Shown: positions 9,490 through 41,814 of the stretch, piece after piece | Numbering within the stretch: the first letter of the stretch is position 1 | Layout: every line of letters begins with the position of its first letter | DNA from: a candidate division TM6 bacterium GW2011_GWF2_32_72 | Lineage (GTDB): Bacteria > Babelota > Babeliae > Babelales > CAIQNR01 | Length of the DNA: 45,299 bases | Reading direction: 5' to 3' | Assembly: GCA_945882015.1 (NCBI GenBank) | Contig: CAMCVM010000006.1 | Span: 1-45,299 of the forward strand | Notes under the pieces: model-generated | Told to the model about the DNA's origin: nothing | Database searches by the model: none | Seen by the model: the letters and a program-made list of their open reading frames with translations, nothing else | Translations under genes and position numbers: made by a program

Positions 9490-10155
9490 TTATCGATCAA
9501 TTAATTTTTTAATTTCTTTGGCTAACTCTTCAGAACTTTTTTGTTCCACTTGCAGCTCAAGATCATACTTAAGAGTGCTATAAACCGTATCATAATGGCT
9601 TCTTGCATGACCTACAGGAGAAGTTGCTCTTTCTTTTTCCCGTTGCTCAAGCGTTGCAAGGGGAATTTTTACAGCAATATAATAAGTTTTAATACCTGCT
9701 AATTTTTGTTGCAAATCTTCAAGCCATTCTGGTTTGTAAGCAATATAATCCACAATCACATTGCACCCTGCCTGAGCATACCCAGCAATTGCACTATTCA
9801 TACCATAGGCTACTTTTTCACCCTGAATTCCTGTATAAAGAGTTACTACGTTATGATTGTCTTTATCTTGGGTTGTTGTGACCCAACGAATTTCATTTGG
9901 ACTTTGCCAGCGTGCCAGTTCAGACATTTCAATATCAGGCATTGGTTTATCAAAAAGATTATCTATCCCTACTTTAATCCATAAATCAGGTGCCATAATT
10001 TTTTGAAAAGCTTTTTGCAAAGAGCTTTTTCCTGAAGCGGACGGTCCATTTAAAACAATTACTGTTCCAGCTTTTTGCGGTTGCTCTACATATTTTTTTA
10101 TCGCAAAAGCCGTTCCTATAATCAGAACTAATACTATTATTATTTCTTTAAGCAT
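9490..10155 (-). CDS. Membrane-anchored CPT-like P-loop kinase
   Basis: The 221-residue protein has an N-terminal membrane anchor (residues 4-19) followed by a P-loop domain of the chloramphenicol-phosphotransferase-like family (PF07931): VIVLNGPSASGKSS (Walker A), KVGIDNLFD, a GMNSAIAGYAQAGCNVIVDY segment, and the Arg-rich lid EQREKERA. Family members phosphorylate small hydroxylated compounds; chloramphenicol O-phosphotransferase is the studied case. The substrate here is unknown. An N-terminal anchor is unusual for this family and suggests a membrane-surface role. The gene overlaps the M48 peptidase gene by 8 bp, so the two are coupled. Confidence 0.72.
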   Translation of the reverse strand: MLKEIIIVLVLIIGTAFAIKKYVEQPQKAGTVIVLNGPSASGKSSLQKAFQKIMAPDLWIKVGIDNLFDKPMPDIEMSELARWQSPNEIRWVTTTQDKDNHNVVTLYTGIQGEKVAYGMNSAIAGYAQAGCNVIVDYIAYKPEWLEDLQQKLAGIKTYYIAVKIPLATLEQREKERATSPVGHARSHYDTVYSTLKYDLELQVEQKSSEELAKEIKKLIDR

Positions 10156-23913: not shown

Positions 23914-25395
23914 ATGAACAGATCCTTATCGCTACTGTTTCTATTATGCGGCGCAGGGGCAATGCGTGCAAATGACGTTTCTGGTATTTCATATTTTAAC
24001 GTCAGACCGGTTCAATCGCACCCAATGCAACAAAACCTTTTAGTAGACCAAGCAACTGACACTGGCCGGGTGCTTCGTATGAAAGGCATTCAAGCTACTG
24101 CATTTTTTGGGCAATCAACTGCAGCTGAAGAACTGGGTAAATATTTTGGTATTGGCGGAAAATCTGAAATGACCGTAAAAGAAACTGAAATAGCAGCAGA
24201 TGGCCCTACAGGAGAACTGACTCAAGACATTCTATCACTCAATTTCAACTTAAATACAAATGCTGGCGGGTTTCACTCAACTATTAAATTCCGCCCACAA
24301 CAAACATTTGGCGGTGTAGGGCTTTCTGCAAGAATGCATTTTAGAGACTGTTATTGGTTAATGGTAGAAGCTCCAATTGTGCATGTTAAAAATAATATGC
24401 ACTTAACCGAAACCATTATTAATAATGGCGGCGGGGTTACTGGAGGAGCAGGACTTAACAATTTCACATCGGCAACCACGATGAAAGATGCATTTAAACA
24501 AGCCGGTATGTTGTATGGAAAAATTGATGGCGCGCAAACTGCAACTGGTCTTGCTGATTTAACCATTAAATTTGGGTATGACAATCCATTTTTAAACAGA
24601 AAAGATCTGTTTATGAATATGTTTGTCGGAGTAGTACTGCCAACCGGTAATAAACCAAAAGCGGTTTACATGTTTGAACCAATTTATGGTAACGGCGGAC
24701 ATGCTGCATTTATGATGGGTTCTCACGGAGAAGTTGATTTAGGTAAATTCAAACAAGGTAAATTGTGGTTAAGCTGGAACGCACATACACAATACTTATT
24801 TGAAAACACACAAAAACGTTCTTTTGATTTAAAACATAATGGACCATGGTCACGTTATCTTTCTATGTTTGAAACACAAGCAAAAAGAACTGCTGCAGGC
24901 GTTACTAATGCCACATGGGGTATCAATTTATTAACACAAGATGCAAAAGTAACTCCTGGTTACAGCGGAACATTTGACACTATGATTTCTTACATGGGTT
25001 CAAAATATTACGGCGGTGCTGGATATTCAACCTTTGTTCGTCAAGCAGAAAAAGTTGAACTTGCAAAAGCATGGCAATATACCGAAAGTTGCATTACAGC
25101 TTATGATCAAGCAGGTGATGATATTAATAGATTCAGAACAATTGGAACAACATTTATTGATTTAGAAGAAAACGATCTTGCAACATTATTACCTATTGGT
25201 GAAATTGATATCAATTTAAATTCAGCAGCTCACCCAAGCTCAGTTTCTCATATGGTTCACGCAAATTTTGGCTATCATAACCAAGCAAGAAGCTATCCTT
25301 TTATTGTAGAAAGTGGAGCTTCTTATGAATTTTCTCGCCAAAATACTGCAATGAGCCGCTGGGCAGTCTGGGCTAATGTAAGAATATCGTTCTAA
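23914..25395 (+). CDS. Outer-membrane beta-barrel (porin-like) protein
   Basis: The 493-residue protein has a signal sequence (MNRSLSLLFLLCGAGAMRA) and a beta-rich body with Gly/aromatic alternation, and ends RISF, the C-terminal Phe signature of BAM substrates. It shares a SRWAVW C-terminal element and an NLLTQ segment with the protein at 73-1494. A strong AAAGGAGAAAG site precedes the ATG. The preceding 209-bp gap to hisS is very AT-rich, with only a weak promoter (TTGCAT, 17 bp, CTAAAT, near 23830). It is followed after 36 bp by the coiled-coil gene, so they may form an envelope operon. Confidence 0.72.
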   Translation: MNRSLSLLFLLCGAGAMRANDVSGISYFNVRPVQSHPMQQNLLVDQATDTGRVLRMKGIQATAFFGQSTAAEELGKYFGIGGKSEMTVKETEIAADGPTGELTQDILSLNFNLNTNAGGFHSTIKFRPQQTFGGVGLSARMHFRDCYWLMVEAPIVHVKNNMHLTETIINNGGGVTGGAGLNNFTSATTMKDAFKQAGMLYGKIDGAQTATGLADLTIKFGYDNPFLNRKDLFMNMFVGVVLPTGNKPKAVYMFEPIYGNGGHAAFMMGSHGEVDLGKFKQGKLWLSWNAHTQYLFENTQKRSFDLKHNGPWSRYLSMFETQAKRTAAGVTNATWGINLLTQDAKVTPGYSGTFDTMISYMGSKYYGGAGYSTFVRQAEKVELAKAWQYTESCITAYDQAGDDINRFRTIGTTFIDLEENDLATLLPIGEIDINLNSAAHPSSVSHMVHANFGYHNQARSYPFIVESGASYEFSRQNTAMSRWAVWANVRISF

Positions 25396-25431
25396 AATTA
25401 AAAATTTAGGGACTTAAAAAAGGAGTTTCTT

Positions 25432-26595
25432 ATGAAATCATTATTACAAAAAAGCATGGTACTTGCGTTAAGCGCATTACTTGTATCTGAAACTGCTCAA
25501 GCTGGAGCACCTCAACCTCTTAATCCACGAGCAGTGGGCCAAAGAAAAGATGCAGTGGAAAAAGCACTTGCAGCTTATAACCTTGCTCAACCTGACCTTA
25601 GAGCATTACCACAAATTATAGCTGATGCGCAAAGCATTAGAGATGCATATTCTCAAAAAGAATGGAAAGGCTTGACGGCTGATTTCTATACCAAAACTGG
25701 TGTAAATCTTGAAGCTAATCCTGCTGCAATGGTTAATGCATTAAGAACATTGATTCAAACATTGGGACTTAATGGTAATACAATTGTCGATCAGTTAGCA
25801 AGACAAACTTTGCAAAATGCACAAGATTTTCAAGCAGCATGGCAAGCATTTTTAGCTCTTGGTGGTAATGGTAGTTTATTCCCAAATGCGCAACAACAAG
25901 CTAGCGGACTTTTAGGAATAACAATTGCAGATCTTCAAAGAATAAGATCTAGCAGAGGAGAAGAAGTAAGAGAGTTGCAGAATCTGGTACAACGCATACA
26001 AAATGATCTTACAGGAACTCAATTCGATCGGGATGCTTTAGCAAAAGATCTTAAAATTATGCAGGAAAGACTTGCAACAAGCTTAAGAAAAACTGATAAA
26101 GATAGATCAGATTCAGATCAAGACGTGCAGACTTTAAGAAATCAAATTAAAGATCTACAAAGAAAACTTGACTTGAAAGAAGATGTTTTAAATATTGCAC
26201 GAGACAAAAGAGCTGAAGCAGAACAACAACTTGCACAATTACAACAACAACTTGCCGAAAATCAAAAAACTATTCAGATGAGAACAGGAGAAAGAGATTC
26301 TTTAAAAAGAGATGTTGCTGCGCAAAAAAAACAACTTGATGCTTGCCTTGCAAAAGATTCTTCTGGTCTAAACAAAGCAACGCAAGAACAGATTGCACAA
26401 TTACAACAACAACTTGCTCAAGCACAAACAACAAATGGACAAGTAAATGCCGCAAATGCACAATTACAACAAGAACATACAGAACTCCGTACTGCATTAG
26501 AGGGAACAACTAAGCATATTGCAGAATTAACAGCTCAATTACGAGCACTACAAGATGAAAATACGCAATTGAGAAATGCCAGGCAAGGCAAATAG
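25432..26595 (+). CDS. Exported coiled-coil protein, N-terminal part of a split gene
   Basis: The 387-residue product has a signal peptide (MKSLLQKSMVLALSALLVSETAQA), a helical domain (about residues 25-175) and a long Gln/Leu-rich coiled coil (about 180-385) with repeats of the type AQLQQQLA. It stops at TAG right after a GGCAAGGCAA tandem. One more GGCAA unit would join it in frame with the next open frame as ...ARQGKANSEDD. I read it as the N-terminal half of one protein of about 860 residues. An AAGGAG site precedes the ATG. The coiled coil could span the periplasm or project from the surface, but this is inference. Confidence 0.75.
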   Translation: MKSLLQKSMVLALSALLVSETAQAGAPQPLNPRAVGQRKDAVEKALAAYNLAQPDLRALPQIIADAQSIRDAYSQKEWKGLTADFYTKTGVNLEANPAAMVNALRTLIQTLGLNGNTIVDQLARQTLQNAQDFQAAWQAFLALGGNGSLFPNAQQQASGLLGITIADLQRIRSSRGEEVRELQNLVQRIQNDLTGTQFDRDALAKDLKIMQERLATSLRKTDKDRSDSDQDVQTLRNQIKDLQRKLDLKEDVLNIARDKRAEAEQQLAQLQQQLAENQKTIQMRTGERDSLKRDVAAQKKQLDACLAKDSSGLNKATQEQIAQLQQQLAQAQTTNGQVNAANAQLQQEHTELRTALEGTTKHIAELTAQLRALQDENTQLRNARQGK

Positions 26596-28021
26596 CGAAG
26601 ATGATCAAGGTGCGGCAGCTGCTGCACCGGCTGACCCAAAAAGTGACCTGACTGTTGCAAAAGTTGATGGTCAAGGCAATGTTATTACTCCTGCTGGAGT
26701 TCTAACATTGCGTGATCAAAGCCAGTTGACTTTACCAATAATTGCAAACAATCATGCTCCAGAGGCTCAACAATTGGTAATTGACTTACAATATCTTGTA
26801 CATGCATTACAAAATGCTCCAAAAGGGCAGCCGATTCCTCTTGATCCATCTCGATTTAATTTTAACAAAGAAGCATTTGATGTTTTATTACGAGGTTTAA
26901 ATCTGGATGACCCTACACAACAACTTGCATTGCAAGATAGACAACAGCTTCCAAATTTGCCTATTGTTTTACGTAATACTTTAGCAGTGGATCAAGGTGG
27001 GCATAATATAACACTTTTACTGCAATTTATAGCGACCTTAATGCAAAATCAGGGACCTATAAATCTGATTAATACAGGCACAGCCATTGAAGCTCAAAAT
27101 CAAAGCGGACGAAAAATCATAGTACTTCCTTTAGAAGTTCTTAATGCAATGAGACCGCTTACAGGAGCGCTGCAAAATGAAAAGCCTCTTGCATTAAACG
27201 TTGCTGTGCAAAATGCTTGCGCTGCTTTAGCAGATTTGACTCATAATGCTGTTCTCGCTGTCAACTATCAACCATGTACACACCTTGCACAAGCTGTTCA
27301 AGCAAATCCAATGCTTCCAGTAGCTTTATTTGTTATTCCTATGCCAATTATACAATCTCTTGCTGCTTTACAGCCAGGTCAACAACAAGAAGTTTATCAG
27401 TTTACTCCAGAATTAAGAGCAAGCTTATTAGCACAACTTAATATAAATGCAGTTTTACCAGCAGAACAACAGATAGCACAATTACAAAACCTTGCTAATC
27501 TTGTTAGAAAATATGCAGCAAGCAAACCGCAACAAGAACAACTTACTGCATTATTAGGTAGTGCTGATCGACAAGCTCTTGCTGTAATTCCATCAATAGC
27601 TGGTGGCGCAAACCAAGAAACTAATGAACAACGTCTATGGATAGCAGCTGTTTTTCTTGATGCTTTGGCTGCTCAACTAGCTAAACCGGAAGTTCCGCTC
27701 TCATTCTTTGTAATAAGAAATGCTCAGGGTCTATTTGATTATGGCTATGCTTCTGCCAATAGTAGACCTGCTGCTATTATGTTACAAGAAGGCATTTTTC
27801 ATGCTATAAGTCGAAACCAGATTAGATCATTAACTGATGAACAAGCAAAGCTGTTAGATTCGATAGGTAAGATGCCAAGGCAAGCTCTTGGTCAATCAAC
27901 ATCATCAGCTGGAAAACCTCAACAACCAGCGCCTCAACAAGGACAACCAGGATGGGGAGCTTGGTTTTACAATAATATAGCAACACAAAGACTTTTAACC
28001 GAACTCCTTAGACGGCTTTAA
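26576..28021 (+). CDS. C-terminal part of split coiled-coil gene
   Basis: The 481-residue frame overlaps the preceding gene by 20 bp. It has no ribosome binding site and no signal peptide, although all its neighbours are exported. This supports its being the downstream half of the coiled-coil gene rather than an independent gene. It begins with an Ala/Asp-rich linker and continues as an Ala/Gln/Leu-rich helical protein ending WFYNNIATQRLLTELLRRL. Residues about 40-120 have a hydrophobic pattern that faintly recalls Skp1/POZ domains; this is weak. A strong terminator follows at 28029. If translated alone it would be cytoplasmic. Confidence 0.6.
   Translation: MPGKANSEDDQGAAAAAPADPKSDLTVAKVDGQGNVITPAGVLTLRDQSQLTLPIIANNHAPEAQQLVIDLQYLVHALQNAPKGQPIPLDPSRFNFNKEAFDVLLRGLNLDDPTQQLALQDRQQLPNLPIVLRNTLAVDQGGHNITLLLQFIATLMQNQGPINLINTGTAIEAQNQSGRKIIVLPLEVLNAMRPLTGALQNEKPLALNVAVQNACAALADLTHNAVLAVNYQPCTHLAQAVQANPMLPVALFVIPMPIIQSLAALQPGQQQEVYQFTPELRASLLAQLNINAVLPAEQQIAQLQNLANLVRKYAASKPQQEQLTALLGSADRQALAVIPSIAGGANQETNEQRLWIAAVFLDALAAQLAKPEVPLSFFVIRNAQGLFDYGYASANSRPAAIMLQEGIFHAISRNQIRSLTDEQAKLLDSIGKMPRQALGQSTSSAGKPQQPAPQQGQPGWGAWFYNNIATQRLLTELLRRL
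26582..26591 (+). repeat. GGCAA tandem repeat at a reading-frame break
   Basis: Two GGCAA units lie just before the TAG of the coiled-coil gene. Three units would keep one frame open from 25432 through 28021. The unit is 5 bp long, so any gain or loss of one copy shifts the frame. Confidence 0.65.
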
Positions 28022-28028
28022 AACTAAG

Positions 28029-28077
28029 GCTTAAAATAAAAAGACCCTGGAAATTCCGGGGTCTTTTTATTTTAAGC
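28029..28077. terminator. Strong 22-bp bidirectional terminator
   Basis: Arms 28029-28050 and 28056-28077 pair over 22 positions with a single T/G wobble and a 5-nt loop. The GACCC core is flanked by A and T runs, which suits termination on either strand. It closes the split coiled-coil gene. Confidence 0.9.
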
Positions 28078-28201: not shown

Positions 28202-28852
28202 ATGAAGCAATTGAATAATGTACTACGTTTTTTATTAACAATGCTTGTAGCAATAGGTTGTGTAACTGTTGCTGCTAAAGTTAAACCGGTTCGCGACATG
28301 AAAAGTGTAGACAAGTATGTTTCGCCAGATAATCTTGTAACCGTTATGGCTGCTTATACCCAACCTGATAAACCACCTAAAGATTTACTCCGACAAGTAC
28401 GAGAAGCTGAACGGGCTCTACGTGATATTTGTGAACATAAAGCGCACCGAAAAATTTCTATGGAATGCATTAAAGTAAATCTTTTTAAAGTCTCAACAGT
28501 AGCTGACGAATATAATCTTAAAAAAGATCCAGAAACACTCTTTATTCTTTTGTTTAAAAAGGGAAGATTAGTTACCAAAATCCCTGTTACATTAAACGAA
28601 GCTGATCGTGACTTTATTTACAAAACTATTAAAGAAGGTATTGAAGAACATTTAGGCGAATTTATTGATCAAAAGTTAGATGAGCTTAATGAACTTGAAG
28701 CCGATATTGCCCGGGCGCGCGCTGCTGCTCCGCAATACATTGTTGACCCTTATTATAATTCATTCTGGGATTATGCATATCACGGTTATTATAATTCTTA
28801 TCATAGACCTTATCCTTACGGAGCTGGATTTGGATGGTACTTTGGACGGTAA
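28202..28852 (+). CDS. Exported protein with Tyr-rich C terminus
   Basis: The start at 28202 follows a GGAGG site; the frame runs back to 28190. The 216-residue protein has an uncleaved or cleaved signal helix (LLTMLVAIGCVTVAA, perhaps a lipobox-like AIGC). It continues with a helical/charged domain containing FILLFKKGRLVTKIPV, thioredoxin-like in look but without CxxC. The C terminus is aromatic and His-rich (YHGYYNSYHRPYPYGAG). Tyr/Gly-rich tails of this kind suggest an envelope or aggregating surface protein. Function is unknown. Confidence 0.72.
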   Translation: MKQLNNVLRFLLTMLVAIGCVTVAAKVKPVRDMKSVDKYVSPDNLVTVMAAYTQPDKPPKDLLRQVREAERALRDICEHKAHRKISMECIKVNLFKVSTVADEYNLKKDPETLFILLFKKGRLVTKIPVTLNEADRDFIYKTIKEGIEEHLGEFIDQKLDELNELEADIARARAAAPQYIVDPYYNSFWDYAYHGYYNSYHRPYPYGAGFGWYFGR

Positions 28853-39867: not shown

Positions 39868-39902
39868 ATAAAAAAGAGCCAAAAACTTTGGCTCTTTTTT
39901 AT
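39868..39902. terminator. Perfect 16-bp bidirectional terminator
   Basis: Arms 39868-39883 and 39887-39902 are perfectly complementary with a 3-nt loop. The AGAGCC core is flanked by A and T runs. It ends both the exported-protein operon and the convergent tyrS. Confidence 0.88.
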
Positions 39903-41086
39903 GTGAGTTTATAAATACGATGTTTGCCAACTTTAAGAACCATGCCCGATTGCCAGGTAATTAAAGCTTTAAAGTCAGAAACTGTTATTCCATCAATTTC
40001 AATTGCTTTTGATTCAATTAAACGTTTTACTTCTGATGAAGAAGTAACTGCATTAATTGTTTTAAGCAAATCAACAATCCATAAAGGGTTAGCTGTACCG
40101 GCAGGCAACGCAACTTCTTGCGCTTGTGATAAGTCTTTTTTCTGGAACAACGACTCAAATTGCTGTTGTGCACTGTCAGCTTCTTGTGCTGACCAGAACA
40201 GAGCAACAATAGCGTGCGCTATTTCTTTTTTGAGATTCATTGGATGCTCTTTTTGTTCAAAAACAGCCAATTTCCGTTGCGTAAGAACTTCATCTGACCA
40301 TAACAACAATACTTTTGCATAACGCCACATTAACTCATCTGAAATTGACATTAATTTACCAAATGCTTGCTCTGCTTTTTCAGTAAGCCCAATATAATTA
40401 TTCAGCGATTTAGACATCTTTTGCACGCCGTCAAGACCTTCAATTAACGGTGTGGTAAGAATCACTTGTGGCTCTTGGGCATATTGTTCTTGTAGCAATC
40501 TACCCATTAATAAATTAAAGGTTTGATCAGTCCCGCCTAATTCAATGTCTGCTGCAAGTTCAACTGAATCATACCCTTGCATTAACGGATACAGCAGTTC
40601 ATGGAAACTAATTGGCTGATTCTGTTTTAATCGATTTGCAAAATCTTCCCGTTCAATTAAACGAGCAACAGTAACTTTTGCACACAATCCTACAAAATCT
40701 CGTGCTGTTAGTTTATCAAGCCACTCAGAATTATAACGAATTTCTACTTTTTTTGAGTCAAGAATACGACCTACTTGTTCAAAATATGTTTGAGTATTTT
40801 TTGCAATAGCTTCTTTTGAAAGTGGCGGCCTTGTTTTTGATTTACCTGTTGGGTCACCGATTGCAGCGGTAAAGTCCCCAATTAAGAAAATAATTTTGTG
40901 CCCTAAATCTTGGAACTGTTTTAATTTTTTAAGTACCACAGCGTGACCAAGATGCAAATCAGGTGATGTTGGGTCCATTCCCAGTTTAATAACAAGTTTT
41001 TTACCAGAAGCCAATTTTTTTGCTAATTCATTTTCTGGTAATGCTGCAACCACACCTTGCATGAGCATATTTAAATCTTTATTCAT
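39899..41086 (-). CDS. tyrS: Tyrosyl-tRNA synthetase
   Basis: The 395-residue class I synthetase charges tRNA-Tyr. It has the HIGH-type motif HLGH (45-48) in DPTSPDLHLGHAV, the GDFTAAIGDPTG segment, KMSKS (223-227) and a C-terminal S4 domain (LIESKAIEIDGITV). The first motif and spacing resemble the TyrZ-like bacterial subclass. The start at 41086 is preceded by AGGTG; the frame to 41116 would overlap the upstream gene. No T-box leader is visible. It is downstream of the M50-like membrane gene on the same strand. Confidence 0.97.
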   Translation of the reverse strand: MNKDLNMLMQGVVAALPENELAKKLASGKKLVIKLGMDPTSPDLHLGHAVVLKKLKQFQDLGHKIIFLIGDFTAAIGDPTGKSKTRPPLSKEAIAKNTQTYFEQVGRILDSKKVEIRYNSEWLDKLTARDFVGLCAKVTVARLIEREDFANRLKQNQPISFHELLYPLMQGYDSVELAADIELGGTDQTFNLLMGRLLQEQYAQEPQVILTTPLIEGLDGVQKMSKSLNNYIGLTEKAEQAFGKLMSISDELMWRYAKVLLLWSDEVLTQRKLAVFEQKEHPMNLKKEIAHAIVALFWSAQEADSAQQQFESLFQKKDLSQAQEVALPAGTANPLWIVDLLKTINAVTSSSEVKRLIESKAIEIDGITVSDFKALITWQSGMVLKVGKHRIYKLT

Positions 41087-41094
41087 TTTTTCAC

Positions 41095-41814
41095 CTACCC
41101 TATAATGCCTATGCAATATGCTAAAATATATGCAATTAATGTTACAAAATTAATAATAGAATCCTGCACTACATAAATTAAAACATACAATAATAACAAC
41201 GGCCCAAACAACATAATCATGTCTGCATACTCATTATCTTGTAATGCATTTTCAAAAAAATAAAAGTACATAAAATGAAAACAGTTAATAATCAATCCAA
41301 ACGCGGACATAAGGGTTGCCATTAAAAAGAACGTCATTAAAAACCAAGTAGCAATCATACCTAATGTAGAAATATGAGGAGTGACAAGTTCAACGTTATG
41401 TAATGTCATTGCACGATTAAGTAAAAACAAAGCTTGTGCTCCGTGCAAAGCAATCAATCCAAAAAATGCAATAATTGCTATGATAATTGCTGCAAAACTA
41501 TCTGAAAAATAAACTGCCGCAAGCTTAAAACCTCTGTACCTACCCTGTATTACAACTGGATTAATAGGAATATAACGACCCAATCCAAATGGCATATAAA
41601 GATGAATTACCTGTAACCACACAATTAAAACAATCCAAATTCTACTGACATGAGCAAATGGATTTAAAGTCAAAAAACCAAAAGATTCAGGGGTATTGTC
41701 TCCCATTTTTTCAGCTACTAAAGCCCTTGTGTAACCTATAAGGGAAGAGCAAATAAAATAGGTAAACAATACAGAAACCATACTAATCAGAAGCTCAACG
41801 CCTTTTATTGTCAT
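41095..41814 (-). CDS. Site-2-protease-like (M50) membrane protein lacking catalytic residues
   Basis: The 239-residue protein has about six membrane helices. The segment AEKMGDNTPESFGFLTLNPF, then AHVSRIW and FGLGRYIPINP, parallels the conserved GD-T-x-GRLTLNP-x-HID and FGW-x-KPVPVNP elements of M50 site-2 proteases. However, the preceding zinc motif HExxHA is replaced by IGYTRA, and no second metal ligand motif (NPDG) is evident. It is therefore probably a pseudoprotease or a membrane scaffold. The start has AAGAGG upstream and a good promoter at 41850-41878. tyrS follows after 8 bp. Confidence 0.68.
   Translation of the reverse strand: MTIKGVELLISMVSVLFTYFICSSLIGYTRALVAEKMGDNTPESFGFLTLNPFAHVSRIWIVLIVWLQVIHLYMPFGLGRYIPINPVVIQGRYRGFKLAAVYFSDSFAAIIIAIIAFFGLIALHGAQALFLLNRAMTLHNVELVTPHISTLGMIATWFLMTFFLMATLMSAFGLIINCFHFMYFYFFENALQDNEYADMIMLFGPLLLLYVLIYVVQDSIINFVTLIAYILAYCIGIIG

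Follow-up and report, generated by a model that had tools for sequence, protein, structure and literature searches.

Do the two adjacent open reading frames that occupy positions 25432 to 28021 of this stretch encode separate proteins, or are they the halves of one gene whose reading frame is broken and, if so, what broke it? A first-pass annotation had proposed a single large exported coiled-coil protein, split by a change in the number of five-base GGCAA repeats, and had offered phase variation, sequencing or assembly error, and early decay as possible causes. We examined the locus within the window (the whole 45,299-nucleotide stretch of DNA analyzed) and in related genomes. The features concerned are listed below.

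23914-25395, + strand: outer-membrane-protein-like (OMP-like) gene, directly upstream of ORF A; conserved synteny anchor
25413-25431, + strand: Shine-Dalgarno region of ORF A, aaaaaaggagtttctt, with aaaaaaggag upstream of ORF A
25432-26595, + strand: ORF A, 387 aa, with a signal-peptide-like N-terminus, an N-domain at residues ~27-94 and a coiled coil at ~169-385; presumed 5' part of a gene termed X here
26573-26595, + strand: joining zone, the 23 bp between the last stop in the frame of ORF B and the TAG of ORF A
26576-28021, + strand: ORF B, 481 aa, rich in Gln, Ala and Leu, with no signal-peptide-like start and no coiled coil; presumed 3' part of gene X
26582-26591, + strand: GGCAAGGCAA, two tandem GGCAA copies within a period-5 tract (26581-26591), at chance frequency
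28036-28070, + strand: intrinsic terminator directly 3' of ORF B, strong (-22.2 kcal/mol, z -6.5)

The geometry of the junction is tightly constrained. Counted modulo 3, ORF A lies in frame 1 and ORF B in frame 2; the last stop in the B frame is a TGA at 26570-26572, and ORF A terminates at a TAG (26593-26595) immediately 3' of GGCAAGGCAA, leaving the joining zone as the only place where the two frames can meet. The ATG of ORF B, at 26576, is upstream of the stop of ORF A, giving an overlap of 20 bp. The split described at the first pass, with ORF A ending right after two GGCAA units, is confirmed apart from one detail, namely that three bases rather than four separate the TGA from this ATG. 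Also borne out are its observations that one further five-base unit would join the frames and that ORF B has neither a ribosome binding site nor a signal peptide: no AAGGAG-like Shine-Dalgarno sequence precedes ORF B, unlike ORF A, and a signal-peptide-like start, as judged by eye, is present in ORF A and absent from ORF B. Coiled-coil scores are positive for the former, with no coiled coil in the latter. Family searches with ORF A returned weak coiled-coil family matches only, and ORF B had no match in Pfam, NCBIfam or PDB; nor was there an Rfam match at the locus.

Codon scores trained on the undisputed genes of the window place the coding frame in that of ORF A until ~26560-26590 and in that of ORF B thereafter, with no uncoded gap. 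Sequences on both sides of the junction score like those undisputed genes, so that the locus displays the two coding flanks and one switch point expected of a single gene interrupted by a frameshift. Out-of-frame readings of ORFs A and B each contain 25-38 stops, while ORF B itself runs for 481 codons without a stop and has a normal GC content by codon position, which argues that it has undergone no decay. The two products also share an unusual composition. Among the 34 proteins of the window they rank first and second both in Gln (14.0% for A and 11.4% for B, against a mean of 5.5 and a maximum of 8.6 in the others) and in Gln plus Ala (27.6% and 25.6%, against a mean of 13.8 and a maximum of 20.2).

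ORFs A and B belong to one transcription unit with the upstream OMP-like gene. The stop of that gene is 36 nt from the start of ORF A, a consensus scan listed no + strand terminator between ORFs A and B, and the strong terminator follows ORF B directly. The OMP-like family has no match in Pfam or NCBIfam, and was found in all 49 of the 49 genomes searched, with 2-15 matches per genome that are often in tandem; a paralogue of the copy at this locus (27% identity) lies at 73-1494, near a mutL-like gene. On the other side of the locus, a small exported-looking gene (28202-28852) is situated between X and secA, and a similar-looking gene takes the same place in a genome of the sister genus (G001; contig L020, 2942-3601).

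That genome provides the closest comparison. The N-domain of ORF A is homologous to those of both X copies that G001 carries in the same hisS-secA interval (31% identity; for one copy, phmmer E 3.5e-8 and hhalign probability 94.6%). Like ORFs A and B, the G001 genes (contigs L006, L007 and L020) begin with a signal peptide and the homologous N-domain, continue through a coiled coil into a C-terminal region, and neighbor the same OMP-like gene; they differ in being present in two copies, each with an uninterrupted body, and in having C-terminal parts that are not detectably like ORF B. Each body, made up of the coiled coil and then the C-terminal region, is read as one ORF, of at least 837 aa in one copy and at least 677 aa in the other. 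The G001 assembly breaks inside X, between N-domain and body, owing to stretches that are identical in the two copies, and the X genes of that genome probably continue from the one into the other. The copies flank the OMP-like gene (L006, 9763-10047; L007, 1-4603; L020, 4725-6758), and their N-terminal parts are nearly identical before they diverge to ~30% identity; as read from these sequences, the pair suggests a constant N-domain joined to variable C-terminal regions.

In genomes of the same family the gene adjoining the OMP-like gene is likewise a single ORF, of 730 aa in G003, 773 aa in G004, 511 aa in G002 and at least 571 aa in G005, where it meets a contig end. The genes at this position in G003, G004 and G005 have no detectable homology to ORF A, so these are positional comparisons only. 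A break at the end of the coiled coil was seen in no relative examined. The sequence of ORF B did not significantly match that half of the X gene which is C-terminal in any relative; against the C-terminal half of G001, neither BLAST, phmmer and hhalign nor shuffled local and global alignments rose above shuffles. The quality of the AlphaFold models did not permit a comparison, their mean pLDDT being 39 for ORF B and 37 for the G001 C-terminal half. Across 101 genomes of the order, searches with ORF B yielded spurious matches and no convincing homologue; one candidate, an 858-aa ORF in G006, was rejected since it contains the DKTGTLT motif of P-type ATPases. Weak N-domain matches in other genomes fared similarly, the three inspected being long hydrophobic MATE-transporter-like proteins that by eye are spurious. 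No relatives were found among named bacterial genomes, viral contigs or plasmids, and the genomes searched included no other member of the genus. Whether homologues in relatives form a single gene, as had been asked at the first pass, thus has a divided answer: long single ORFs do occupy the syntenic place, and detectable homology is limited to the N-domain of ORF A, with none for ORF B.

Overall, these findings make it probable that ORFs A and B are parts of one gene, X, encoding an exported coiled-coil protein and containing one net frame change. Because ORF B lacks a detectable homologue, the case rests on synteny, the N-domain, coding statistics, composition and the structure of the transcription unit; the frame switch and the uninterrupted ORFs of relatives, together with these, uphold the central proposal of the first-pass annotation. 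Gene X would encode a Sec-exported protein of ~860-870 residues, predicted to consist of a signal peptide, a short N-domain, a long coiled coil, an acidic/alanine linker and a Q/A/L-rich C-terminal region. It would be transcribed with the upstream OMP-like gene, to end at the terminator 3' of ORF B, and in this assembly would be interrupted by a net frame change within the 23-bp zone, at the border of coiled coil and linker. A single ancestral gene would account for this arrangement, and its product may be made along with an OMP-like partner. Gene content and genome size suggest that the host lineage may belong to the Dependentiae/Babeliae. Many proteins of that phylum are predicted to be secreted, and a role in interaction with the host has been proposed for them (PMC4378268).

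The principal alternative is that ORF B is a real second gene, translationally coupled to the first by a restart at the ATG that precedes the stop of ORF A. The overlap of 20 bp is short, a second gene pair of the window has one of 22 bp (39899-41116 and 41095-41814, as listed from their longest starts), and several good genes of the window are likewise without a strong Shine-Dalgarno sequence. Yet export would then be lost to ORF B and kept by ORF A, and separate genes would have to share the unusual composition described above and stand where relatives have single ORFs; we regard coupling as unlikely. A programmed ribosomal frameshift at the end of ORF A, yielding the full-length protein, has a slighter chance still. 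Both frames do look selected, and a GC-rich hairpin (26609-26628; -15.2 kcal/mol, z -2.2, mildly stronger than shuffles), located in the region coding for the alanine-rich linker, begins 13 nt after the stop of ORF A. However, the shift required is +1 or -2, whereas -1 is commoner, and the predicted folding of the 141 nt around the junction does not exceed that of shuffles (z -0.53). Neither a prfB-like CUU-UGA site nor a poly-A slippery heptamer is present: ORF A ends GGC AAA TAG, CTT-TGA is absent and no Shine-Dalgarno-like element is evident upstream of the frame end, so that the junction lacks the shift-prone motif and stimulators of prfB-type +1 shifting. The arrangement, moreover, was found in no relative examined.

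Phase variation, in which the addition or removal of one GGCAA copy would switch the C-terminal half on and off, is the least likely of the three causes offered at the first pass, and appears highly improbable in absolute terms. The arithmetic is sound, in that the unit length is not a multiple of three and the tract is placed where a five-base change brings frames 1 and 2 together, and there is a precedent in Haemophilus influenzae, some of whose pentanucleotide loci vary between strains at unit counts down to one, two or four (hsdM) or between two and three (the hmg locus) (PMC2651432). The present case shares with the hsdM tracts a repeat unit of 5 bp located where a reading frame is broken, here that of a gene presumed to encode a surface or exported protein; the present tract differs in holding just two copies, at chance frequency, in a window where no tract of 5-bp units reaches three copies. 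Markov shuffles predict 51 +/- 7 tandem 5-bp duplications for the window, which contains 45; some tandem 4-, 5-, 7- or 8-mer pair is present in ~8% of 26-bp windows, and the 10-mer formed by the GGCAA pair occurs 3 times in the 819-kb genome, as against 2 for its reversed control. In H. influenzae itself such pairs are plentiful, with 1676 in the Rd KW20 genome, two units being the maximum length expected and three the threshold adopted in that study (PMC2651432). The window also contains a full-length mutL-like gene, which gives no sign of a loss of mismatch repair. The frames could be joined just as well by other small net changes within the 23 bp, and the evidence does not support a GGCAA unit as the cause of the break. 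We found nothing relevant in the literature on phase variation or frameshifting in Dependentiae. A broader variant, to which we assign an equally minimal probability, would make X a member of a fast-evolving exported family whose N-domain is common to all and whose C-terminal parts are exchangeable; the frame at the border of coiled coil and C-terminal part would differ among the cells of a population, some exporting the coiled coil alone and others the complete protein. Were the frame polymorphic in reads, this would be an initial indication that switching occurs in a lineage that has been little studied.

Returning to a single gene X with one net frame change, the break may be an error in the assembly consensus or a genuine mutation of very recent date, the two being about equally probable. 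These two possibilities together make up the probability that we give to the single gene, the remainder being divided among translational coupling of two genes, a programmed frameshift and phase variation. That the genome carries a continuous X, the frame being altered only in the consensus, is a serious possibility, if somewhat short of an even chance. Frameshifts introduced by assembly are well documented as a source of spurious pseudogenes (Cooley and Wright 2024, PMC11017572), and isolated ones are a known artefact; the interrupted genes of draft and metagenome assemblies described there resemble the present locus in their one net frame change, their coding-like halves and their otherwise healthy sequence, and ORF B is undecayed throughout. 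Against such an error, the frame is intact in every conserved gene of the window that was checked (secA, hisS, gspE/pilB-like, mutL, ftsA, tamB-like, class I tRNA synthetases and others), which argues that the assembly is not generally indel-ridden, and the 23-bp zone has no long homopolymer, its only runs being AAA. A real and recent frameshift, truncating X in the population and leaving its 3' part an incipient pseudogene, is almost as plausible, although still tentative. The loss may be tolerated, X being a fast-evolving and lineage-specific gene, and the sequence is otherwise intact; the complete lack of decay nonetheless demands a very recent event. Should the change be real, the N-domain and coiled coil would still be produced and exported, with little or none of the C-terminal part. 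For annotation, ORFs A and B are best treated as one probable exported protein with a frame break, and neither as two genes nor as a demonstrated phase-variable locus. Elsewhere in the window, positions 9490-10155 encode a chloramphenicol phosphotransferase-like (CPT family) protein, which adjoins an M48 peptidase-like gene.
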